In this document: positions 27,616 to 39,352 of the stretch, one piece after another
How positions within the stretch are numbered: the stretch's first letter is position 1
Layout of the letters: each line of letters starts with the position of its first letter
Assembly (NCBI GenBank): GCA_024244705.1
Contig: JAAEOK010000110.1
Coordinates: forward strand, 1 to 51,933
DNA: 51,933 nucleotides
Direction: 5' to 3'
DNA from: Alphaproteobacteria bacterium
Lineage (GTDB): Bacteria; Pseudomonadota; Alphaproteobacteria; JAAEOK01
Notes under the pieces: model-generated
Told to the model about the DNA's origin: nothing
Database searches by the model: none
The model's input: the letters and a program-made list of their open reading frames with translations, nothing else
Position numbers and translations under genes: made by a program

Positions 27616-28461
27616 ATGACTGACGCTCCCGAAATTTGGCCGTCGCGCCTCCATCACATACGCATCGATTCCACCGATCCGAGCCGCTTGATTCCGTTCT
27701 ATCGCGATGGGCTCGGTCTCCGCGAGCGGCCCCTGGCCGAGGGGCAATCGCTGATGGACGGACGCAAACGGCGTGTCGTGATCGGTCGCGGCGAGGCCAA
27801 CAGGCTTTCCTTCGCCGCGTTCGCGATGGCCGATCGGGCGGCCGTCGCCGCCCTACGCCGAACATTGGAACGCCGCCAGGTGCCGATCGAGCCGTCGCCG
27901 ACCCCATTGTTCGAGGACGACGCCTTCGCGGTCACCGACCCCGACGGCGGTCGGATCGTTTTCGGCCTGCCCAACACGGCCTATGACGGCGATGACGAGC
28001 TACCCGGACGGCTCCAGCATTTCGTCATGGCGACGACCGATTTGGAGCGGCTTCACGAGTTCTATTCGGATGTCCTGGGGTTCGTCGTTTCGGACGAGGT
28101 CGTCGATGAGGACAGCGGCCGGATCACCGCGCGCTTCTATCGCTGCGATCCCGAACACCATAGCTTCGCGGCCTTCGTAGCGCCCGAAACGGGACTGGAC
28201 CACCACGCCTACGAAGCCGATTGCTGGAATGACATCCGCGATTGGGCTGACCATTTCTCGCGCCTGCGTGTGCCGCTATGGTGGGGTCCGGGCCGGCACG
28301 GTCCCGGCGACAATCTGTTCTTCATGGTCCTCGACCCCGACGGCAACAAGGTCGAGATCTCCGCCGAGCTCGAGCATATGCCGCTGTCGATGGCGAAACG
28401 GACATGGCCCCATTGCGAACGGACCCTCAACTATTGGGGCCAGGCGTGGATGCGCAGCTGA
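27616..28461 (+). CDS. Two-domain type I extradiol dioxygenase (VOC superfamily)
   Basis: A 281-residue protein with two vicinal-oxygen-chelate modules (about 10-122 and 130-255), the architecture of catechol 2,3-dioxygenase and BphC. The Fe(II) ligands can be placed in the second module: His135 in RLQHFVMATTD, His196 in GLDHHAYEA and Glu247 in NKVEISAE, with spacing close to BphC. It should cleave a catecholic ring with O2. The gene follows livF by 15 bases and precedes an FAH-family gene by 37 bases, which would hydrolyse a ring-fission product. Substrate not deducible; relatives act on catechols, dihydroxybiphenyls and homoprotocatechuate. Confidence 0.9.
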   Translation: MTDAPEIWPSRLHHIRIDSTDPSRLIPFYRDGLGLRERPLAEGQSLMDGRKRRVVIGRGEANRLSFAAFAMADRAAVAALRRTLERRQVPIEPSPTPLFEDDAFAVTDPDGGRIVFGLPNTAYDGDDELPGRLQHFVMATTDLERLHEFYSDVLGFVVSDEVVDEDSGRITARFYRCDPEHHSFAAFVAPETGLDHHAYEADCWNDIRDWADHFSRLRVPLWWGPGRHGPGDNLFFMVLDPDGNKVEISAELEHMPLSMAKRTWPHCERTLNYWGQAWMRS

Positions 28462-28498: not shown

Positions 28499-29344
28499 AT
28501 GAAATTGCTGAGCTTCCGGCATGGTGGAATCGATGGCTACGGCATCGCCGTCGACGACGGCGTCGTCGATGCGTCGCGGCGACTGGGAACGAAGTTTCCC
28601 GATCTCAAGTCCGCGCTCGCCGACGGCATGGCGGAACTCGCCGCGCTCGACAGCGGAACCGACGCCGATTTTTCGCTCGACGAAATCGAATTCCGGCCGA
28701 CGATCCCCAACCCCGACAAGATCATCTGCGTCGGGCTCAACTACAAGAAGCACGTCGAGGAAACCGGTCGCGGCGACGCCGACTATCCGGCCCTGTTCAC
28801 GCGCTTCGCCAATACCCAGGTCGGTCATGAACAACCCCTGGTGCTGCCGACTCATTCGGATCGTTTCGACTACGAGGGCGAGTTGGCAATGGTCATCGGC
28901 AAGGCCGGTCGCCATATTCCGGCCGAGAGGGCGTTCGACCACATCGCCGGATACGCCTGCTACAACGATGGCAGCATCCGCGACTGGCAACGTCACACCC
29001 ATCAGTTTACGCCGGGCAAGAACTTTCCCCACACCGGCGGCTTCGGGCCGTGGATCGTGACCACCGATGAAATCCCGGACCCGACCGCGCTGACCCTGGT
29101 GACGCGGCTCAACGGAACCGAGATGCAGCGGGCGACCACCGACCAGCTGATCTTCGATATCCCTTATCTGATCAACTATCTGTCGACCTTCACCGAACTC
29201 GTCCCCGGCGACGTCATTCCAACCGGCACCCCGGGCGGCGTCGGTTTCAAGCGCACACCACCGGTCTTCATGAGGGCAGGCGACACCGTCGAGGTCGAGA
29301 TCACCGGCATCGGCACCCTGGTCAATCCGATCGTCGCCGAATAG
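28499..29344 (+). CDS. Fumarylacetoacetate hydrolase family protein
   Basis: A 281-residue FAH-family enzyme. The metal-binding cluster is visible in FDYEGELAMVIGKAGRHIPAERAFDHIAGY followed by NDGSIRDWQ, and the C-terminal TGTPGGVGF is the family fingerprint. FAH-family members in aromatic pathways hydrolyse fumarylpyruvate or act as hydratases, decarboxylases or isomerases on oxo-dicarboxylates. GGAGG precedes ATG 28499. With the neighbouring gentisate-dioxygenase-like gene, fumaryl- or maleylpyruvate hydrolysis is a reasonable hypothesis. It is seventh in the transporter operon, 12 bases before the MFS gene. Confidence 0.92.
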   Translation: MKLLSFRHGGIDGYGIAVDDGVVDASRRLGTKFPDLKSALADGMAELAALDSGTDADFSLDEIEFRPTIPNPDKIICVGLNYKKHVEETGRGDADYPALFTRFANTQVGHEQPLVLPTHSDRFDYEGELAMVIGKAGRHIPAERAFDHIAGYACYNDGSIRDWQRHTHQFTPGKNFPHTGGFGPWIVTTDEIPDPTALTLVTRLNGTEMQRATTDQLIFDIPYLINYLSTFTELVPGDVIPTGTPGGVGFKRTPPVFMRAGDTVEVEITGIGTLVNPIVAE

Positions 29345-29356
29345 CAATTCGCCATC

Positions 29357-30571
29357 GTGTCCCCTTCGACCGCTACCCCCGCGACCCAATGGCGGATTGT
29401 CCTGTTGGTGGTCGGCGCGGGAATCGTCGCCGCCTTTCAGATCGGCAAGGTGCCCGCCGCGCTGCCGGTCCTCCGCGCCGAACTCGGCATCGACCTCGTC
29501 ACCGCGGGCTGGATCCTGTCGATCTTCAATGTCGTCGGTGCGGCAATTGGAATTCTCGCCGGCGCTACCGCCGACAAGCTCGGCCACCGCCGCCTAGTCC
29601 TGTTTGGACTGTGGGCGGTCGCCATCGGCAGCGCCCTCGGCGGCCTGGCGCCCGGCGTCACGACGCTGTTGCTGAGCCGCTTCCTCGCCGGATTCGGCTT
29701 CATCACCATCATCGTCGCGGCGCCGGGCCTGATCGTCAGGTCGGCAAGGCCCGAGGACATGGGCATGGCATTCGGATTTTGGGGCACCTACATGCCGCTC
29801 GGCACGGCGGCGATGATCGTGGCCTCGCCGACTTTGATCGCGGCCCTGGGTTGGCGTGGTCTTTGGGAAATCAATGCCGGACTGGTCGCCGCCTATGCCA
29901 TCGCCCTTGCCGCGGCAACCCGCAATTTGGGCGGACGGCCCCCGCCCGACACCGCCGGCCCGCGGCATTTGGCGCGCGACATCCGGACCACCCTATTCGC
30001 CCCCGGTCCTCTGCTTCTGACCCTGTGCTTTATGACCTACACCAGCAATTTCATCGCGGTGATGGGCTTTCTGCCGACGTTCCTGGTCGAAACCCGCGGC
30101 ATGGGCGCCGGACTGGCCGCATCGATCACCGCGCTCGCGGTGGTCGTCAATGCAGCCGGCAACCTGACCGCCGGCTGGCTGCTGCGCCATGGCGTGAGGC
30201 GATCGCTGCTGATCACCGTCGCCAGCGCAACGATGGCCGTTACCGCCATCGGCATCTACAGCGAAGCCGTGCCCGACGGCGCGCGCGTCGTCCTGTGCAT
30301 CGTCTTTTCGGTTGTCGGCGGCCTGTTGCCCGCCTCCATCCTCGGCGCGACGGCGGATTTCACCCCGCGCCCGGCCCTCATCGGTACCACCAACGGGCTC
30401 GTCATGCAGGGATCCAATATCGGCCAGATGATGGGGCCGCCGATCGCAGGCGCTCTCGTCGCCGCTACCGGGACCTGGAGCGCGGCGCCGATTCCCGTCG
30501 TCTTCTCGGCGGCGGTCGGGATCGTGCTGGCACTGATGATCGGCCGCCTCAAACCGCCGATGCACTCGTAA
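29357..30571 (+). CDS. MFS transporter, aromatic-cluster associated
   Basis: A 404-residue major facilitator superfamily carrier with about 12 hydrophobic helices. The loop DKLGHRRLVLFG (with the A-motif-like position after helix 2) and the even distribution of helices fit the CynX/NimT-like or general MFS_1 type. The start is GTG 29357, 12 bases after the FAH gene, and it is the last gene of the plus-strand transport-catabolism operon. It may export a by-product or import a second aromatic acid. Its stop is 10 bases from the convergent unknown gene. Confidence 0.87.
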   Translation: MSPSTATPATQWRIVLLVVGAGIVAAFQIGKVPAALPVLRAELGIDLVTAGWILSIFNVVGAAIGILAGATADKLGHRRLVLFGLWAVAIGSALGGLAPGVTTLLLSRFLAGFGFITIIVAAPGLIVRSARPEDMGMAFGFWGTYMPLGTAAMIVASPTLIAALGWRGLWEINAGLVAAYAIALAAATRNLGGRPPPDTAGPRHLARDIRTTLFAPGPLLLTLCFMTYTSNFIAVMGFLPTFLVETRGMGAGLAASITALAVVVNAAGNLTAGWLLRHGVRRSLLITVASATMAVTAIGIYSEAVPDGARVVLCIVFSVVGGLLPASILGATADFTPRPALIGTTNGLVMQGSNIGQMMGPPIAGALVAATGTWSAAPIPVVFSAAVGIVLALMIGRLKPPMHS

Positions 30572-30580
30572 CGCGGCGAC

Positions 30581-31147
30581 TCAAAACACGCGCAAGGCGC
30601 CGCCGACGATACCGAGCGGCCAGCGGCCGGCGCGAAACAGGTCGAATTTGGCAACAAAGAGGTCGGCCGCGTCTTCCCCGGCGAGACGGGCAAGCGCCGC
30701 CTGATAGACGGCCTGGGCGGCGGCGCCCGCCGCGACGCGCGCGAGAAATGGATCGATGGTGCCGAAGCGGGCAAGCGCGTCGGACGCCGCATCGAGGACC
30801 ACCGCATTCGCCTGCTCGGTAACGGTGGTCAATAGATCAAGCGCCGTCTTCTCGCCGAGGGCGCCGGCGCAGGCGTCGAGGAGGTTGCGCCGGTGGGCCT
30901 CTTCCCGCGCCCACCAGCCCTGCTCCCAGGCCGGGTCGCGGGTGACATCGGCCGCCGCGCGCCAATCGGAAACGGATCCAACGGTCACATCCCGATAGCC
31001 GAGCCCGATCAGATAGCGCGACGCGGTCGCCACGACGGTTTTCGGGAGCGGCAAACCGACCGCGGCAAACCAGGCGACGGCCGGCAATTCGGCGGCGAAT
31101 TGTTCAAGCGAACCTCGGCCGTCGGGGCCGCCGCCGCCGCGCGGCAT
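30581..31147 (-). CDS. Unknown helical protein, 188 residues
   Basis: I do not recognise this family. The product is Ala-rich and predicted largely helical, with an E82-x-x-H85 pair in WWAREEAHRRNLL and a conserved-looking aromatic C-terminus FRAGRWPLGIVGGALRVF. GAGGG precedes ATG 31147, which starts nine bases after the cupin gene stop; a TTG or GTG four or two codons upstream is possible. It is last in the reductase-SDR-diiron-cupin operon. One possibility, not shown, is a structural partner for the PaaA-like subunit (PaaC role); another is an accessory protein for the cupin enzyme. Confidence 0.75.
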   Translation of the reverse strand: MPRGGGGPDGRGSLEQFAAELPAVAWFAAVGLPLPKTVVATASRYLIGLGYRDVTVGSVSDWRAAADVTRDPAWEQGWWAREEAHRRNLLDACAGALGEKTALDLLTTVTEQANAVVLDAASDALARFGTIDPFLARVAAGAAAQAVYQAALARLAGEDAADLFVAKFDLFRAGRWPLGIVGGALRVF

Positions 31148-31155
31148 CGTCACCC

Positions 31156-32190
31156 TCAATCTTCCGCGTTGCCGCGCTGCTCGCGAAACAGGCCGAGTTT
31201 TTCCTGAACCGGACGGTTGGAAAAACTGAAGACGACCGCATCCTCATCGGCCTCGAAGTAATTCCAAGCCCATGCCGGGACAACGAAAACGTCGCGCGGA
31301 CCCCATTCGAGGGTTACGTCGCCGACCGCCAATCGGCCCTTCCCCTCGACCGCCGAGAACACGGTGGCGTCGGTCGATCGGTAGGGTGTGGTGGCGAAAC
31401 CCTTGGGCAAAAGCTGGATCGACGTTCCCATGGTCGGCATCGCCCAGCCGCCGTCGACCGGGTTGACGTAGCGCATCTTGAGCCCGTGACAGGGATCCCA
31501 ATCCTCGGTCCGGCGCATCGTTTCCAATGCCGCACGGGTTCGGTCATAGCGATAATTAAAGATCGGCGAGCATAGCGAACCGGACTGATAGCCGTCCGGC
31601 AGCAGGCCCTGGCCATAGCGCGCCGGCGCGTCGCCGACCGGCCGGCCGATCGGCTGCACGGCTTCGGGATATTTCTCGGCGAAGCCGGCATCGAGATAAT
31701 TGACCAACGGCACGTCGAGGCCGTCCATCCACACCATGGGCCGATCCGATTCATTGCCGTGGTCGTGCCAGGTCCAGGGCGGCGTGATGACGAAATCGCC
31801 CTCGTGCATGATCGTCCGTTCGCCGTCGACGGCGGTATAGGCGCCGTCGCCTTCGATAACGAAGCGCAGCGCCGACTGGGTATGGCGATGGCTGGGCGCG
31901 ATCTCGCCGGGCAGGATGAGCTGGAGCCCGGCATAGAGCGACGGCGTGACCTGGTTGGTCCCCTGGAGGCCCGGATTCTCCAGCACCAGGACCCGACGCT
32001 CCGCCTCCTCAGCGGTGATCAGATCGCCGGCCTCGAGCACGAAGTGGCGGATCTTGTCGTAGTGCCAAATATGGGCCGCGCAGGTCCGCGGCGGCTCCTT
32101 CGGCACCAAATTGTGGAGCACCTCCCACAGCGGCGCCAGGCTGTCGGCGCCGATGCGGTCGTAATAGGCCTGACGTTCCGCTTTCGCCAT
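31156..32190 (-). CDS. Gentisate 1,2-dioxygenase-like cupin
   Basis: A 344-residue bicupin of the gentisate 1,2-dioxygenase/1-hydroxy-2-naphthoate dioxygenase family. The Fe(II) ligands of the first cupin are clear: His101 and His103 in PSHRHTQSALRFVIEG and His142 in WHDHGNES. The second cupin (about 240-335) lacks these histidines, as in gentisate dioxygenases. The family cleaves between carboxyl- and hydroxyl-bearing carbons to give maleylpyruvate-type products. AGGAGAACGAG precedes ATG 32190. Genes upstream encode a diiron oxygenase, dehydrogenase and reductase, so its substrate is likely formed by that oxygenase. Gentisate, salicylate or a substituted analogue cannot be told apart. Confidence 0.92.
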   Translation of the reverse strand: MAKAERQAYYDRIGADSLAPLWEVLHNLVPKEPPRTCAAHIWHYDKIRHFVLEAGDLITAEEAERRVLVLENPGLQGTNQVTPSLYAGLQLILPGEIAPSHRHTQSALRFVIEGDGAYTAVDGERTIMHEGDFVITPPWTWHDHGNESDRPMVWMDGLDVPLVNYLDAGFAEKYPEAVQPIGRPVGDAPARYGQGLLPDGYQSGSLCSPIFNYRYDRTRAALETMRRTEDWDPCHGLKMRYVNPVDGGWAMPTMGTSIQLLPKGFATTPYRSTDATVFSAVEGKGRLAVGDVTLEWGPRDVFVVPAWAWNYFEADEDAVVFSFSNRPVQEKLGLFREQRGNAED

Positions 32191-32229
32191 CTCGTTCTCC
32201 TCGCCGCGATCTTAGCCTTTGAAGCGCGG

Positions 32230-32952
32230 CTACGCAGCAGCCAGTTCGACCGCGGGCAAGGTTAGTCCGAGTTGATCCTCGACGACCTCGCGGGCGCGGG
32301 CGACATAGTCGGCGCGCATCGCCTCGTTGGTGCGCTCCTTGATGCCCCACTTGCGGAAAATCTCATTGTTCTTCGATTTGTCACGGCCGAAAAACGCGGG
32401 CAACGACGGAAAGATGCGGTCGATCCCGGCCTGCACCGCCGTGCGTCCGGCCTCGCTCTGGCACAGGTCACCGCAGAAATCGACGCCGAATTGGGCGTGG
32501 AACCGCTCCTCCGGCATCGTCATGCGGGCGAGGTTGCGGAGCGGATGGAACGAACATTTGACCAAATCCTCGACCTGCAGGATTTCGGCCAGATCGCCGA
32601 GCATCTTGATGACGCAGAATTCTTCCCAGGTCTCGAGCGGATAGTCGAAAATCGACAGCGGCCGTTTCTCGGCCCGCTCGGGGACCATGTCGGCCTCGGC
32701 GATCCCCATCTCGCGGCCGAGCTCGAAGAACCTTACATGGTGCCCGTATTCCTCCATCGCCACGCGGCAGGTCAGCCACTTGGCATAAGGCGTCGGCGCC
32801 AGGGCGACCGCCGGTTCATCGAACACCCGCGCACCCTGCAGCTCGTTGATGGCGTGGCTGATCACCAGCTTGCGCACGGCGTTCCCGTATTCTTCCGGGT
32901 AATACTTCAAATCTTCGCAGGTATCGACCTGGGGTATTTCGTGGGTCGTCAT
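32230..32952 (-). CDS. PaaA-like diiron oxygenase subunit
   Basis: A 240-residue ferritin-like protein of the phenylacetic acid catabolic (PaaA/PaaC) family. Two ExxH motifs expected of a carboxylate-bridged diiron centre are present: E68-x-x-H71 in EEYGHHVRF and E149-x-x-H152 in PEERFHAQFG. Glu37 in INELQG and an acidic residue at 120-123 in LGDLAEIL complete the likely set. It is shorter than PaaA of phenylacetyl-CoA epoxidase (about 310). No PaaB, PaaC, PaaD, PaaG or PaaZ gene lies in the window. A ferredoxin-type reductase gene lies upstream, separated by the SDR gene, and a CoA ligase gene is divergent, so oxygenation of an aromatic CoA ester is the leading idea. Confidence 0.87.
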   Translation of the reverse strand: MTTHEIPQVDTCEDLKYYPEEYGNAVRKLVISHAINELQGARVFDEPAVALAPTPYAKWLTCRVAMEEYGHHVRFFELGREMGIAEADMVPERAEKRPLSIFDYPLETWEEFCVIKMLGDLAEILQVEDLVKCSFHPLRNLARMTMPEERFHAQFGVDFCGDLCQSEAGRTAVQAGIDRIFPSLPAFFGRDKSKNNEIFRKWGIKERTNEAMRADYVARAREVVEDQLGLTLPAVELAAA

Positions 32953-32962
32953 CGCGCACCTC

Positions 32963-33889
32963 TCATACGACGGGGTCCGTGTTGAATGATTCGAGGTCGG
33001 TTTCCAACGGCGTAAACGACGGGACCATCGCCGACATGCCGCCGGCGATGTTCTCGGCGCGCCAGTCCTCCTCCTCGTCGACCAGCCAGGAGACCGGCCG
33101 CGGCTGCGAGAACAGAAAGATCTCGCGGCCGCGAACGCCGAACAATTGGCCGGTCACGTTCTGCGCGTCCGCCGAACACAGATAGGTCACGAAGGCGGCG
33201 ACGTGCCGCGGCAACACCTTCATGGCCCGTTCCTTGTAGGCGGCCTGGGCGTCATTGGCCGGCTTGATGATGTCGGTGACGCGGGTATGGGCGAACGGCG
33301 CCACCGAGTTGGCGGTGACCCCCGTCCGTGCCATGTCGAGGGCGGCGATCCGAGTCAAACCGACCAATCCGGCCTTGGCGCTGCTGTAGGCCGCCTGACC
33401 GTAGTTTCCGTAGAGGCCGGCGGTCGAGACGATGCTGACCAGCCGGCCCGGCGGCCGACCGGCTTTGGCCTGATTTCTCAGCACCGGCGTCACCGCAGTC
33501 ATCAGGTAGTAGGCCGCCGACAGGTTGTTGCGGATAACCGCGTCCCAATCGCCCGAATCGCCTTTGAAGACAAAGGCATCGCGCAGGATCGCCGCATTAT
33601 TGACCAGTATGTCGAGGGCGCCGAAGGCATCGAGCGCGGCGTCGACGGCTGCCTGCGCCGCCGATGGGCTGGCGACGCTTTCGGTGAAGGCCCTCGTATT
33701 GTCGCCCAGTGCGCCCGCCAAGTCCGTCGCCGGCGACGGGTCGGCACCGGCGCCGTCGATCCCGGTACCGCTGTCGGCGATGACCACGCGGGCGCCATGA
33801 TCGACGAGATCCTCGACGATCGCCTTGCCGATGCCGCGCGCGCCACCGGTCACCAGGGCAACCCGGTCCTGCAACAATGTCGATGGCAT
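32963..33889 (-). CDS. Short-chain dehydrogenase/reductase
   Basis: A 308-residue classical SDR. The cofactor motif TGGARGIG is at residues 14-21, NNAA at 97-100, and the catalytic Ser155, Tyr168 and Lys172 are in place (YSSAK). The middle and C-terminal extension resemble the dehydrogenase domain of peroxisomal multifunctional enzyme type 2, which acts on 3-hydroxyacyl-CoA. It could oxidise a dihydrodiol or hydroxyacyl-CoA intermediate made by the neighbouring oxygenase. ATG 33889 shares its A with the TGA of the reductase gene (TGATG), so the genes are translationally coupled; a longer upstream frame would overlap it heavily. Confidence 0.88.
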   Translation of the reverse strand: MPSTLLQDRVALVTGGARGIGKAIVEDLVDHGARVVIADSGTGIDGAGADPSPATDLAGALGDNTRAFTESVASPSAAQAAVDAALDAFGALDILVNNAAILRDAFVFKGDSGDWDAVIRNNLSAAYYLMTAVTPVLRNQAKAGRPPGRLVSIVSTAGLYGNYGQAAYSSAKAGLVGLTRIAALDMARTGVTANSVAPFAHTRVTDIIKPANDAQAAYKERAMKVLPRHVAAFVTYLCSADAQNVTGQLFGVRGREIFLFSQPRPVSWLVDEEEDWRAENIAGGMSAMVPSFTPLETDLESFNTDPVV

Positions 33890-34920
33890 CAAGCCCCCTT
33901 CCCGGCCGCTTTGTCGGCCTCGGTATAGAATGCGTCGGCGTGGCAATCCTGGCGCCTGATGCCGAGCGATGTCAAAACGCGTGTCGCGGCCTCGACCATC
34001 GGCGGCGGGCCCGCGAGATAGCCCTTGCAGCCGTCGAGATCGGTAAAGTCCGAGCGCACCGATTCATGGAGGAATCCGGTGCGCCGCGTCGTCTCCTTAG
34101 TGGGCTCGGACAAAACCGGGATGAAATGAAAATTGGCATGGGTCGCCGCCAATTCGTCGAAGTAGCGTTCGAGATAGAGATCTCGTTCGTCGCGCACGCC
34201 GAAATAGAGGTAAATGCTCTGCCCGATCTCCGCATCCAGCGCCGAATCGATGATCGACTTGATGGGCGCGATGCCCGATCCGCCGGCAAGTGCAACAATA
34301 GGCCCGTTGTGATTGCGGCGAAGATAGGAGGTGCCGAACGGCCCGCGGACGCGCACCTCGTCGCCGACCTTGAGCGCCTCCTGGACATAGGGCGTGACGG
34401 CGCCATCCGGGATCAGGCGGATGTGAAACTCGAGCTCGTCGCCGCCGGGCATGTTGGCCATCGAATAGTCGCGGGGCGGCAAATCCGGAAAGACGAGGCT
34501 CGCATATTGACCGGGCGAGAAGTCGAACGGCCCGCCGGACTCGATCCTCAGCCGGATGACACGGATGTCGTGGGTCGCGGGTTCGGCCGAAATCACCGAG
34601 CACCTCAAGTGGCGGCTGGGATGGGTCTCCACATCCTCCGATTCGAGGTGGGCGACCTCGCAGTCCGACCAGGGCACCGCCCGACAGGCGAGAATCAGCC
34701 CGCGCGCGCGTTCTTCCGCGGTTAGCGCGAACTCCGAGTAGGGCGACAGCTCGACGTCGCCCGCGATTAGCTCCGACTTGCAGGCGCCGCAATTGCCCGA
34801 GCGGCAACCGTGAGGATAGGGCAATTCCAAGCGCAACGCGGTTTCGAGGATGGTATCGCCCATCTCGACCGACACCGGCGTTTCGAATTGGCTGACCTTG
34901 ACCGTAAAGCTCATGCTCAT
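33889..34920 (-). CDS. 2Fe-2S ferredoxin/FAD/NAD(P)H oxidoreductase (oxygenase reductase)
   Basis: A 343-residue electron-transfer component. An N-terminal plant-type ferredoxin domain carries Cys39, Cys44, Cys47 and Cys79 (PHGCRSGNCGACK and ILACR). An FAD-binding domain follows with the RDYSMAN motif (residues about 159-165), then an NAD(P)-binding domain with ALAGGSGIAPIKS and a C-terminal GPPPMVEA. The order matches phenol hydroxylase component DmpP, BenC and PaaE-like reductases. It is the first gene of the minus-strand operon and very likely feeds electrons to the diiron oxygenase. Its promoter overlaps the double palindrome at 34956-34997. Confidence 0.92.
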   Translation of the reverse strand: MSMSFTVKVSQFETPVSVEMGDTILETALRLELPYPHGCRSGNCGACKSELIAGDVELSPYSEFALTAEERARGLILACRAVPWSDCEVAHLESEDVETHPSRHLRCSVISAEPATHDIRVIRLRIESGGPFDFSPGQYASLVFPDLPPRDYSMANMPGGDELEFHIRLIPDGAVTPYVQEALKVGDEVRVRGPFGTSYLRRNHNGPIVALAGGSGIAPIKSIIDSALDAEIGQSIYLYFGVRDERDLYLERYFDELAATHANFHFIPVLSEPTKETTRRTGFLHESVRSDFTDLDGCKGYLAGPPPMVEAATRVLTSLGIRRQDCHADAFYTEADKAAGKGA

Positions 34921-34955
34921 AGAACAGAGATTCGACCGGTCCGATATAGGTCAAT

Positions 34956-34997
34956 ATTGTTTGGATTTCAAACAATTTGTGATACAAACAAATTGTT
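34956..34997. promoter_or_regulatory. Two overlapping operator-like palindromes between reductase and MarR genes
   Basis: The first is ATTGTTTG (34956-34963), five bases, then CAAACAAT (34969-34976). The second is AACAATTTGT (34971-34980), seven bases, then ACAAATTGTT (34988-34997). They share six bases. Toward the MarR gene, TTGTTT (34957-34962) and TGATAC (34980-34985) are spaced by 17 bases and could be -35 and -10 boxes inside the operators. The AT-rich palindromes contrast with the GC-rich surroundings. MarR dimers classically bind such sites next to their own gene. Confidence 0.75.
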
Positions 34998-35021
34998 GGA
35001 CAGAAACGACGGACGCAGGTG

Positions 35022-35486
35022 ATGGGTCGAACCGGCCGGAGCGGCATCCGGAGCACCGAAGAGCTGCGTTACGCGCCGCTCGGTGAGCTTCTGGGCTATG
35101 GCCTTCGGCGTGCTCAATTGCGCGCCTTCCAGGACTTCGCCGAGACCATGGCTCCGTTCGACATCAGCCCCGGACAGCTCGGGGGCCTGTTGCTGGTCGA
35201 CACCAATTCCGGTCTCAACCAGTCGGCTTTGGCGCGCGCGATGGGGCTGGACCGGTCGACAATCGTCGCGGTCATCGACAATCTCGAAACACGCGGGCTG
35301 ATACGGCGCCGGCCCGCCCCCGGAGACCGCCGTGCCCATGCCCTTTTCCTAACCGATGCGGGGCGTCGGTTCCTCCGCCGCATCGAGCCGCATCTGCGCG
35401 CGCATGAAGACAGGCTATCGGCCGGGCTGTCGACAGATGAACGCCGCACGCTGACCGATTTGCTGAAGCGGATAAACGGACTTTAG
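35022..35486 (+). CDS. MarR family transcriptional regulator
   Basis: A 154-residue winged-helix regulator. The HTH region LNQSALARAMGLDRSTIVAVIDNLETRGLIRRRPAPGDRRAHALFLT is the textbook MarR core with the DRR wing. GTG 35019 lies directly before ATG 35022 and either may start translation; no strong ribosome site is present. The gene diverges from the oxygenase operon and precedes a CoA ligase gene by 67 bases. MarR regulators of aromatic clusters often respond to the acid or its CoA ester; here a CoA ester of the ligase product is a plausible ligand. Confidence 0.92.
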   Translation: MGRTGRSGIRSTEELRYAPLGELLGYGLRRAQLRAFQDFAETMAPFDISPGQLGGLLLVDTNSGLNQSALARAMGLDRSTIVAVIDNLETRGLIRRRPAPGDRRAHALFLTDAGRRFLRRIEPHLRAHEDRLSAGLSTDERRTLTDLLKRINGL

Positions 35487-35553
35487 AATACTGTCGTTTC
35501 TCGGGGTCACCCGGCGATAGGCGGTCTTCGAGCGCGGCACGGGGAGTGGACAG

Positions 35554-37101
35554 ATGTTGGCAGGACGGATGTTGGAATTGCCGGCGCGCCGAACGCCCCA
35601 CCGCGTCGCGTTGACCGCCGGCGACCGCAGGATGACATTTCGAGAACTTTCCGATGCGGCGAATCAATTCGCCAACGCACTCCATTCGTCCGGTGTAGCC
35701 AAAGGCGAACGCATCGCGGCCATGCTGCCCAATGTTGCCGAATATGCAGCGGTGCATTTTGGCGCCGCGCGCGCCGGCGCGATCTTGGCCCATCTTTCGT
35801 TCCGCTATGCACCCAAGGACCTGGTCTATGTTCTGAACAAGATCGGTGCGACTTCGCTCGTCTTCGACGCCGAATATGCGGCGCTGGTCGCCGAAATCGC
35901 GCCACAGATCGGGTCGCTTCGTCGCATCGTCGTCGTCGACGGTCCGGCCGACGCGCTGCCGGAGGCCACCGCCTATGACGATTTCGTCGCCGGCCAGCCG
36001 ACGGCGGAGCCGACGGTCGAACTGTCCGACAGCGACCCCTACGCGATCACGTTCACCGGCGGCACCACCGGGTTTCCCAAGGCCGTCCTGGTCTCGCACA
36101 AATGCCGCACGGCGTCGGCGGTCACCATCGTCGCCCAGCACGGGTTGAGCGATGCCGAACGGGCCGCGGTGGTAACACCGATCTTCCACGCCGTCGGCTT
36201 GTTCGTTTGGTTCCAGCCGTTGCTGTGGCTCGGCTGCAGCTGTTCGCTGCTCAGGACGTGGAACCCGGAGCGATTCATGGATCTCGTCGAGCGCGACAAG
36301 ATCACCGCCGCCTTTCTTGTCCCGACCCAACTCAATGGGCTGGTAAGGCATCCGCGGTTCGAGCCGTCGCGACTCGCCACTTTGCGCCATATCGGATTCG
36401 CCGGTTCGCCGATGCCATCGGCACTCATCGCCGAACTTCGCGCCCTCTTCCCCAACATTCTGTTCACCGAGAACTATGGCCAGTCGGAAACCGGTCCCAT
36501 GACGGTCAAGCGTCATTGGGAGCACACCGACAAGCCGGACAGCATCGGGCGGCCCTCGTTCAACGTCGAGCTCGACATTTTCGGCCCCGATGGCCGCCCC
36601 GTCGCCGCCGGCGAGGTCGGCGAGATCGTGACTCGCGGCGACCATCTCATGGTCGCCTACGACGACGATCCCGAGCAGACCGCGGCCCTGTTCAAGTCGG
36701 GCGACGGGTGGCTGTGGACCGGGGACCTCGGATTCCGCGACGCGGAAGGCTATTTCGCCCTGGTCGACCGATCGAAGGACATGGTCATCTCGGGCGGCGA
36801 GAACATCTATCCCAAAGAAATCGAGGATGCGCTCTACAAGCACCCGGCGGTCGCCGAATGCGCGGTCTTCGGCATTCCGGACGACCATTGGGGCGAGGTT
36901 CCGGCCGCCCACGTCGTGCTGCGCGACGGCAATTCCATTAGCGCCGAGGATTTGATCGACTTCAGCCTCCGGACGCTCGCCCGCTACAAGCGCCCACGCC
37001 TGATCGAATTCGTCGCCGCGATCCCGAAGACGCCGGTCGGCAAGATGCAAAAACACCTCATTCGCGCGCCCTACTGGAAGGGGCGGGATAAATTTCTTTG
37101 A
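35554..37101 (+). CDS. AMP-dependent acyl/aryl-CoA ligase
   Basis: A 515-residue ANL-superfamily acid-CoA ligase. ATP-binding FTGGTTGFPK is at 167-176, the adenine site ENYGQSETG near 308-316, TGDLGFRDAEGYF near 388-400, hinge DRSKDMVISGGENIYPKEIE after it, and the catalytic lysine in IPKTPVGKMQKHL near the end. GGGGAG precedes ATG 35554. It is downstream of and probably co-transcribed with the MarR gene, opposite the diiron oxygenase operon. It likely makes the aromatic CoA ester on which that system acts. It differs clearly in sequence from the ligase at 10619-12166. Confidence 0.92.
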   Translation: MLAGRMLELPARRTPHRVALTAGDRRMTFRELSDAANQFANALHSSGVAKGERIAAMLPNVAEYAAVHFGAARAGAILAHLSFRYAPKDLVYVLNKIGATSLVFDAEYAALVAEIAPQIGSLRRIVVVDGPADALPEATAYDDFVAGQPTAEPTVELSDSDPYAITFTGGTTGFPKAVLVSHKCRTASAVTIVAQHGLSDAERAAVVTPIFHAVGLFVWFQPLLWLGCSCSLLRTWNPERFMDLVERDKITAAFLVPTQLNGLVRHPRFEPSRLATLRHIGFAGSPMPSALIAELRALFPNILFTENYGQSETGPMTVKRHWEHTDKPDSIGRPSFNVELDIFGPDGRPVAAGEVGEIVTRGDHLMVAYDDDPEQTAALFKSGDGWLWTGDLGFRDAEGYFALVDRSKDMVISGGENIYPKEIEDALYKHPAVAECAVFGIPDDHWGEVPAAHVVLRDGNSISAEDLIDFSLRTLARYKRPRLIEFVAAIPKTPVGKMQKHLIRAPYWKGRDKFL

Positions 37102-37980: not shown

Positions 37981-38838
37981 CTAGGCTGCACGCACCGCGA
38001 CCCGCATCGCACCGATCCCGTCCATCGTAAAGTCGATGACATCGCCGGCTTTGACCGGGCCAACACCTTCGGGGGTCCCGGTCATGATCAGGTCGCCGGG
38101 ATAAAGGGTATAAAAGGACGAGGCGTATTCGACCAAACGCGCGATATCAAAAATCAAGTGACGCGTGTTCGAGGCCTGGCGCACCTCGCCATTGACGCGA
38201 AGCTCGAAATCGATGGCGTCGGGATCGGCGATTTCGTCCGCCGTCACCAACCAGGGCCCGATCACCGCATAGCTGTCGACCGACTTGCGTAAAGATCGAT
38301 CCTCGGTGCCACGCACCGTCATGTCCAATCCCATCGTATAGCCCGCGATATGATCGAAGGCGCGATCGCGCGGGATATCCGACCCGCCTTTGCCGATGAC
38401 GGTGACCAACTCCGCCTCATGGTCGTTGCGGCGGTCGGTGAAGCGGAGCGCGATGCCCTCACCGGGACCGACGAGCGCGCTGTTCGCCTTGAGGAACAGG
38501 CCATAGTGATCGATGGTCTTGATATCCTGGCCGAAATTGATGCCGGCGTCGGCCTGCGCCTCGTCGAGGTGCTTGTGATAATTGACCGGGGCACCAATCA
38601 CCTTGGTCGGATTGGCGACCGGGCTGAGCAGCCGGACGTCGGCCAACGGTCTCGCCGCCGCCGAGTCTACAAGGTCGGCAGCGCGCTCGACGATCCGGTC
38701 GAGATGCGCGATCAACGCGTCGCCCGGGGGAACCGGCCATGACATGGCCGGCAACACAGCGAGGGCCCCCGTCACGTCATGGATCCTCTCGCCATCAGTC
38801 ACGCCCAGGCGATCCTCGTCAAAACGGCATAGCTTCAT
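37981..38838 (-). CDS. Fumarylacetoacetate hydrolase family protein (second copy)
   Basis: A 285-residue FAH-family enzyme distinct from the one at 28499-29344. The metal-binding segment RRNDHEAELVTVIGKGG, then FDHIAGYTMGLDMTVRG, and C-terminal IMTGTPEGVGPVKAGD are clear. GGAGGGGAA precedes ATG 38838, which fits the family length; an upstream frame would overlap the MarR gene region. It probably hydrolyses, decarboxylates or isomerises an oxo-dicarboxylate from ring fission. It follows the second MarR gene by 28 bases and precedes the sulfotransferase gene. Confidence 0.92.
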   Translation of the reverse strand: MKLCRFDEDRLGVTDGERIHDVTGALAVLPAMSWPVPPGDALIAHLDRIVERAADLVDSAAARPLADVRLLSPVANPTKVIGAPVNYHKHLDEAQADAGINFGQDIKTIDHYGLFLKANSALVGPGEGIALRFTDRRNDHEAELVTVIGKGGSDIPRDRAFDHIAGYTMGLDMTVRGTEDRSLRKSVDSYAVIGPWLVTADEIADPDAIDFELRVNGEVRQASNTRHLIFDIARLVEYASSFYTLYPGDLIMTGTPEGVGPVKAGDVIDFTMDGIGAMRVAVRAA

Positions 38839-38866
38839 TTCCCCTCCACACACTTGGAAACATGGT

Positions 38867-39352
38867 TCATTCCGGGTCGCGGCCTGGCACCGCATCGCGT
38901 TTGGCATCGGCCATCGTCCGCAAGCAGCTCATGAACTCCGACCGCCGTGCCGGCGCTAGAGGCGCCAGGATCCGTTCTTGTGCGGCATTAATGGCCGGCA
39001 CCGCCCGCTCCAGGATTTGCTCGCCCTCGGTCGTCACATAGAGGGCATAGGCGCGCGCGTCCCTGCTCGTTCGCCGCCGCCTCAGCCAGCCCCGTCGAAT
39101 CAGGCGGCTGATCAAATCGCCGATCGTGCTGCGGTCGATGCCGGTCAAATTGACCAGGTCGGTCTGGCTCAGGCCGGGGTGCTGCCGCACCGTGATCAGC
39201 GCCGCGAACTGACGCGGTGTGGGTCCGTTCCGGCCGACTTCACTGACATAAATCTCAACGGCGCGTTGCTGGCACCGACGCATGAGGTGGCCGGGGGCCT
39301 CGAGGAGCCGGTAGTTCGTCACCGCCGGCTGCCCCTTTCGCGGATGGTTCAT
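38867..39352 (-). CDS. MarR family transcriptional regulator (second copy)
   Basis: A 161-residue winged-helix regulator. LSQTDLVNLTGIDRSTIGDLISRLIRRGWLRRRRTSRDARAYALYVT is the MarR HTH and wing. An N-terminal helical extension and the arginine-rich wing are unremarkable. ATG 39352 has GAGGGAAACGGG upstream. It heads a unit with the FAH-type gene and diverges from the luciferase-like gene, so it probably controls both directions through the 250-base gap. Confidence 0.92.
   Translation of the reverse strand: MNHPRKGQPAVTNYRLLEAPGHLMRRCQQRAVEIYVSEVGRNGPTPRQFAALITVRQHPGLSQTDLVNLTGIDRSTIGDLISRLIRRGWLRRRRTSRDARAYALYVTTEGEQILERAVPAINAAQERILAPLAPARRSEFMSCLRTMADAKRDAVPGRDPE

Follow-up and report, generated by a model that had tools for sequence, protein, structure and literature searches.

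The contig JAAEOK010000110.1 of an Alphaproteobacteria bacterium (assembly GCA_024244705.1), analysed here as one stretch of 51,933 nucleotides (the window), carries a real and conserved set of genes that is apparently undescribed, in which a variant of the coenzyme A (CoA)-ester diiron oxygenases is apparently joined to the gentisate pathway. We propose, with a probability of about 0.55, that these genes form a regulated unit for the breakdown of a hydroxylated benzoic acid, wherein a hydroxybenzoyl-CoA would be converted to gentisyl-CoA by a two-component diiron oxygenase, followed by hydrolysis and gentisate cleavage. The unit comprises the following features.

33889..34920, minus strand: RED, NADH-dependent reductase with an N-terminal 2Fe-2S domain followed by FAD and NAD domains
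32963..33892, minus strand: SDR, short-chain dehydrogenase resembling (3R)-hydroxyacyl-CoA dehydrogenase (MFE-2 type)
32230..32952, minus strand: DIR, diiron oxygenase of 240 residues, PaaA/BoxB-type by family, in a separate clade
31156..32190, minus strand: GDO, gentisate 1,2-dioxygenase, a bicupin (TIGR02272)
30581..31159, minus strand: HEL, helical protein whose model has an Imm5-like immunity-protein fold
34957..35000, no strand: proposed MarR operators, inverted repeats in the divergent promoter
35019..35486, plus strand: MarR-family regulator (PF01047, 52 bits)
35554..37101, plus strand: AMP-forming acyl/aryl-CoA ligase (PF00501, 263 bits)

The first-pass annotation of this DNA had described a tight operon opposite a MarR gene and a CoA ligase gene, and all seven genes are indeed found intact in these places and in this order. 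Thus, RED, SDR, DIR, GDO and HEL follow one another on the minus strand, and the MarR and ligase genes diverge from them out of a 98-bp promoter region. The HEL start and the GDO stop overlap by 4 bases, the RED stop is overlapped by the SDR start, and the remaining intergenic gaps are 39 bp (GDO-DIR) and 10 bp (DIR-SDR). The host genome measures 4.5 Mb in 127 contigs.

DIR matches PF05138 (88 bits, Pfam) and lies under all equivalog cut-offs, with 86 bits vs 280 for PaaA (TIGR02156), 28 vs 133 for PaaC and 12 vs 499 for BoxB (TIGR03225). The structure nearest to its AlphaFold model (predicted local distance difference test, pLDDT, 95.5) is that of E. coli PaaA, with a TM of 0.87 and 26-27% identity, followed by Sulfolobus SSO1313, PaaC and BoxB. 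Both ExxH motifs claimed at first pass are real (E68-H71 and E149-H152), and further iron ligands are provided by E37 and D120. In PaaA, the iron is held by E42, E72, H75, D126, E155 and H158 (PMC4498308). Alignment to Klebsiella PaaA (L226) shows all six kept in 17/17 DIR sequences and most of them lost in PaaC. PaaA also has a lysine bridge, in which K68 interacts with E49, E72 and D126 (PMC4498308). This bridge is gone in DIR, where K68 is replaced by valine or isoleucine in 17/17 sequences and E49 by aspartate, as opposed to lysine and glutamate in 16/16 PaaA sequences; valine or isoleucine at this position is common to DIR and BoxB. Because DIR stops near PaaA residue 247, it is also without the C-terminal lid segment (the Leu286 door).

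In a maximum-likelihood tree, DIR forms one clade (99/100), and PaaA, PaaC and BoxB form one clade each; the tree check proposed at first pass therefore puts DIR in a clade of its own, inside none of the characterised clades tested. Furthermore, no relatives between 62% and 33% identity to DIR were found in 96 related genomes and 397 genomes of the phylum, and this identity gap makes the DIR clade a discrete one. Could DIR nevertheless be a divergent catalytic subunit of phenylacetyl-CoA epoxidase, that is, a PaaA orthologue with its partners encoded elsewhere? Its family, its identity and its structural closeness to PaaA would agree with this, as would the approximately unbiased (AU) test, which does not reject a grouping of DIR with PaaA relative to other PF05138 proteins (p 0.39); the deeper order is left unsettled by the tree. 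On the other side, DIR falls 194 bits short of the PaaA cut-off, stands in a separate clade and has lost the lysine bridge and the C-terminal lid region. PaaB and PaaC genes are found neither in the operon nor in related loci. The host has three PF05138 proteins, of which the two others match only PaaA, weakly, so that PaaC is not among them, and one genome (G092) holds DIR plus a separate PaaA/PaaC pair. We thus regard orthology to PaaA as highly improbable. The earlier statement that PaaB, PaaC and PaaG/PaaZ are not here is right for the unit, where none occurs, but does not extend to the genome, which has paaG, paaN-type and boxB genes elsewhere.

The neighbourhood is conserved well beyond this contig. 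Scanning genomes yielded 170 related stretches, and the best 80, at 65-76% identity to DIR, are nearly all from Alphaproteobacteria, including Rhodospirillales-like metagenome-assembled genomes, Reyranella, Defluviicoccus, Iodidimonas and Enhydrobacter. Neighbours were counted in the loci with enough flank, 74 upstream and 66 downstream. RED lies upstream of DIR in 71/74 loci and SDR in 68/74, and the two together in 66/74, confirming that the gene order seen at first pass is kept across loci. Downstream, GDO is immediately next in 35/66 and HEL follows in 47/66. Recurrent neighbours of DIR are genes for CoA ligases (some AMP-forming, others ADP-forming), for 4HBT thioesterases and for TRAP uptake. 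In an alternative layout, an ADP-forming acyl-CoA synthetase-like gene replaces the AMP-forming ligase and is accompanied by a TRAP transporter, a 4HBT thioesterase and an FAH hydrolase; one group of loci has an FAH gene and an amidohydrolase gene, without GDO and HEL. Reyranella has HEL but no GDO adjoining DIR, Defluviicoccus has no SDR adjoining it, and the full gene set is present in one genome of another class (L229).

The block might alternatively consist of mere neighbours, with RED and HEL as general proteins and with DIR doing something else altogether, for instance in resistance or biosynthesis. Indeed, there are genomes with HEL, or with a RED orthologue, that have no DIR. This account has to contend with the conserved order, with a dedicated operator shared by the loci, and with the varied layouts in which the genes repeatedly rejoin CoA ligases, a thioesterase, uptake systems, FAH and GDO, and we consider it improbable.

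RED consists of Fer2 (14-83), FAD_binding_6 (107-198) and NAD_binding_1 (211-312) domains according to Pfam. PaaE belongs to reductase class IA, in contrast to the class IB or III reductases of classical monooxygenases (PMC4498308). The RED domain order, 2Fe-2S, FAD and NAD, is of the BenC/MmoC type and not of the PaaE type. Its scores are all under cut-offs, with 192 bits for BenC, 166 bits for MmoC, 112 vs a cut-off of 421 for PaaE, and 34 bits vs 459 for BoxA (TIGR03224). Domain order and scores therefore indicate that the partner of DIR differs in type from both PaaE and BoxA, and RED is proposed to be the electron donor of DIR. Its near-constant place upstream of DIR, without PaaB or PaaC, supports the first-pass view of it as a dedicated reductase. 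RED orthologues with 43-63% identity are also seen in genomes without DIR, in varied settings (L209-L212, L172, L182).

The link to gentisate comes from GDO, which exceeds the TIGR02272 equivalog cut-off (565 bits vs 442) and aligns over its full length with a solved relative, 2d40 (449 bits). Calling this cupin gentisate-dioxygenase-like had the family right and was worded too weakly, as the protein is a full gentisate 1,2-dioxygenase. The substrate of gentisate dioxygenase is the free acid. The further suggestion that the cupin cleaves a CoA ester directly was not upheld: GDO is a standard gentisate dioxygenase, and a 4HBT thioesterase at related loci could free the acid.

GDO accompanies DIR in cis and in trans. 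Among the 96 relatives, it occurs in 7/7 genomes with DIR vs 9/89 others (Fisher p 1e-6, kinship ignored), including cases where it is encoded elsewhere in the genome. It was also found in 20/22 DIR genomes checked, mostly picked for an operon without GDO, and all six Reyranella-type genomes of those 22 have it at 62-64% identity. In Defluviicoccus the set is split, with ligase, RED and DIR at one locus and GDO, MarR and SDR at another; the SDR of this separate locus is 61% identical to a member of the present SDR cluster (L219). In another genome (L222), a separate GDO stands with HEL and FAH. It is these split and rejoined layouts that speak most strongly for a single pathway served by DIR, SDR and GDO.

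In the scheme that we favour, the ligase would make an aryl-CoA, as its family suggests, and DIR, which has the iron ligands and the accompanying reductase, would use electrons from RED to add a single oxygen atom to the aromatic ring of this thioester. The product would be gentisyl-CoA, formed most simply from salicyloyl-CoA or 3-hydroxybenzoyl-CoA through hydroxylation para to the existing hydroxyl group; 4-hydroxybenzoyl-CoA, with acyl migration, would be an alternative substrate. SDR, which appears to be of a CoA-ester-acting type, is weakly inferred to act on what is probably a dienone- or dihydrodiol-type intermediate, or on an upstream hydroxyacyl-CoA. A thioesterase, whose gene is present at related loci outside the window, would then free gentisate for cleavage by GDO, the family of which is clear, and an FAH-type hydrolase would finish the sequence. 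MarR would repress both sides through TTGTTTG-N5-CAAACAA until its ligand appears.

Several points weigh against this scheme. The reaction and the substrate, as well as the regiochemistry, the order of the steps and the role of SDR, are deduced from family and gene context. There is no thioesterase gene at the window's own locus, and GDO is not directly downstream of DIR in about half of the loci. The co-occurrence of DIR and GDO is partly phylogenetic, the p value above ignoring relatedness, and RED may also serve other partners, given its orthologues in genomes without DIR. Most of all, a simple hydroxylation gives SDR no necessary place, and this enzyme (PF00106, 131 bits), whose best solved relative is the (3R)-hydroxyacyl-CoA dehydrogenase 2et6 (E 3e-64), is the main unexplained part.

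With SDR unexplained, a second reading deserves some weight, namely that DIR is an epoxidase of some other CoA ester (benzoyl-, aminobenzoyl-, arylpropenoyl- or alicyclic acyl-CoA), that SDR oxidises a dihydrodiol or hydroxy intermediate, and that GDO works on a later or parallel metabolite. Such an epoxidase would be in keeping with the retention of SDR nearly as strictly as RED, with the resemblance of SDR to hydroxyacyl-CoA dehydrogenases, with a feruloyl-CoA synthetase as the best solved relative of the ligase, and with the valine or isoleucine that replaces PaaA K68 in BoxB as well. It is harder to reconcile with the strong association of GDO both in cis and in trans and with the Defluviicoccus SDR, which adjoins GDO and not DIR; moreover, the BoxB of the host, being over its cut-off, already covers benzoyl-CoA. 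We judge this epoxidase unlikely, if still deserving of attention, and retain the conversion of a hydroxybenzoyl-CoA to gentisyl-CoA as our proposal.

The divergent promoter contains TTGTTTG-N5-CAAACAA plus an overlapping second copy, and the window holds the only exact copy of this operator in the 4.5-Mb genome. In 43/71 loci, the region upstream of RED has the palindrome with at most three mismatches, as against about 1 expected from other stretches of the same loci. In many loci, the MarR gene is a neighbour of RED or of its transport genes. When the operator was used to look for other regulon genes, the genome had no second exact match and sites with two mismatches were at control frequency only, nor does the operator stand ahead of the trans-encoded GDO genes of Reyranella and Defluviicoccus. 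By inference from these sequences, the regulator would be a dedicated local MarR switch.

To our knowledge, the diiron systems that oxidise aromatic CoA esters are two, Paa and Box. In both, the ring is opened hydrolytically once the CoA ester is no longer aromatic. BoxAB, the benzoyl-CoA 2,3-epoxidase, resembles the present unit in having one diiron subunit together with a reductase, with an aryl-CoA as the substrate (predicted for DIR), in the six iron ligands, and in the valine or isoleucine for the bridge lysine. It differs in size (240 residues in DIR vs about 471 in BoxB, as was rightly remarked at first pass), in its reductase, as RED is not BoxA, and in ring opening, with BoxC hydrolysis where GDO stands here; a separate BoxB over cut-off exists in the host. 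PaaABCE has in common with the unit PF05138, the fold and the iron ligands of catalytic PaaA, whereas PaaB, PaaC, PaaG/PaaZ, the lysine bridge and the C-terminal lid region are absent here and the 2Fe-2S domain of the reductase is N-terminal, unlike that of PaaE.

Gentisate routes provide the other comparison. In Streptomyces WA46, the Sdg pathway degrades salicylate from salicylyl-CoA through gentisyl-CoA to gentisate with the hydroxylase SdgC (PMC4600096, PMC13215587). The route proposed here would follow the same logic: a CoA ester is formed, its ring is hydroxylated, the thioester is hydrolysed and gentisate 1,2-dioxygenase takes over. SdgC is a flavoprotein hydroxylase, whereas the operon offers no ring-hydroxylase candidate other than DIR, a diiron protein that has its reductase in a separate gene; general family scans found no flavin ring hydroxylase among the operon's open reading frames, and no SdgC model was searched directly. 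PhgABC of Brevibacillus takes another aromatic acid, 4-hydroxybenzoate, to gentisate through the CoA ester, and we know of no diiron enzyme described for the NIH-shift route between these two acids. The same end product is reached from 4-hydroxybenzoate by NIH shift in Haloarcula sp. D1, according to the work of Fairley et al. 2002 as cited in PMC4005966. The open-licence papers searched on gentisate with CoA or diiron contained no matching pathway, in line with the first-pass remark that the combination could not be matched to a described one.

We raise, tentatively and at rather less than even odds, the possibility that Paa and Box have a third counterpart among the diiron oxygenases of aromatic CoA esters, one reduced to two components (a 240-residue subunit and a BenC-type reductase). 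It would make gentisyl-CoA, with an SDR-dependent step not known from gentisate routes, and would give deep-branching Alphaproteobacteria a CoA-dependent way into gentisate degradation. If true, a third clade working with a classical ring-cleaving dioxygenase would join both strategies of aerobic aromatic degradation and add a new entry route into it. It would also assign a function to a clade present in more than 80 species, mostly uncultured Alphaproteobacteria of marine, soil, groundwater and sludge origin, in which automatic annotation would call DIR phenylacetate catabolism.

HEL, of 192 residues counted from a TTG start, had no significant match when its sequence was searched against Pfam, NCBIfam and the PDB, and no Pfam family exceeds its cut-off among 53 family members. 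The top structural matches of its model (pLDDT 94) are two Imm5-like immunity proteins, RhsI2 at Z 11.7 and PIM1 at Z 10.1, and the best of the other folds scores Z 3.9; a shared Imm5-like fold is no proof of function. The possibility, implied at first pass, that this helical protein (then counted as 188 residues) is an oxygenase subunit has to be abandoned. A PaaC-like or dedicated subunit is ruled out by its distribution, and its fold is that of immunity proteins, not of PaaC. Thus, HEL occurs in 20/96 alphaproteobacterial genomes, most of them without DIR, and was not found in 12/18 DIR genomes searched, mainly those without HEL in the operon. HEL is best seen as a passenger or general accessory, an accessory at most, and as a member of a wider, seemingly undescribed alphaproteobacterial family. 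It is often arranged in the order ftsK-lolA-HEL-xthA (gene names read from sequences); in several loci, the DIR operon is likewise followed by xthA. The family (e.g. L174, L175, L178-L183) has a conserved C-terminal GRWPLG motif.

For the ligase, the best solved relatives are 8weu/8wev (feruloyl-CoA synthetase, 291 bits); its best matches were too mixed for a decision on the substrate. Further genes flank the unit on both sides.

27616-28461: extradiol-type (VOC) dioxygenase gene, ahead of the FAH and MFS genes
28499..29344, plus strand: FAH-family hydrolase (HpaG-C 164 bits, under cut-off)
29357..30571, plus strand: MFS transporter; 43-55% identical genes adjoin DIR in L031, L050 and L052
37189-37956: Stf0-type sulfotransferase gene, between the ligase gene and the second FAH gene
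37981..38907, minus strand: second FAH-family hydrolase, past the ligase gene (PF01557, 185 bits)

Related loci repeatedly have FAH genes next to DIR or GDO, and the FAH at 28499..29344 is a candidate hydrolase of the ring-cleavage product. The second FAH has a 66% identical gene in L031, next to DIR or ligase, and relatives of 52-58% identity adjoining DIR or ligase in L063, L074, L081 and L094. The MFS transporter is a candidate for uptake of the aromatic acid. Genes 54-56% identical to the VOC dioxygenase gene accompany DIR in L050 and L052, so that the region may include a second enzyme for ring cleavage.

Other PaaA-like proteins were met in the course of the analysis. The second of the host, a solitary protein (L114:6265-7041, contig C93:18318-19037), scores 65 bits vs the PaaA cut-off of 280, and the ligands at PaaA E72 and D126 are missing in the alignment. 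It lies directly ahead of a PaaG gene over cut-off, with PaaH-, PaaI- and PaaJ-like genes and a divergent PaaN_2-type aldehyde dehydrogenase plus flavodoxin at the same locus; no PaaB, PaaC or PaaE genes were seen near it, and the locus is possibly a reduced phenylacetate system. The third host protein (L115:6143-6979, contig C36) is very divergent, lies near a PaaX-like regulator, and its gene overlaps a helical open reading frame of 170 residues without family. On a Burkholderia stagnalis plasmid (L227:6031-8428), a PaaA-like protein has as neighbours a PaaI thioesterase, a cupin and a radical SAM gene; chlorinating-enzyme and adenylation genes are clustered close by, and the locus probably represents a biosynthetic use of the family. 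Finally, a Variovorax sp. WDL1 plasmid (L228:5650-7464) encodes a PaaA-like protein followed by an SDR, with thiolase, MaoC and AMP ligase genes nearby, another PaaA-like and SDR pairing.

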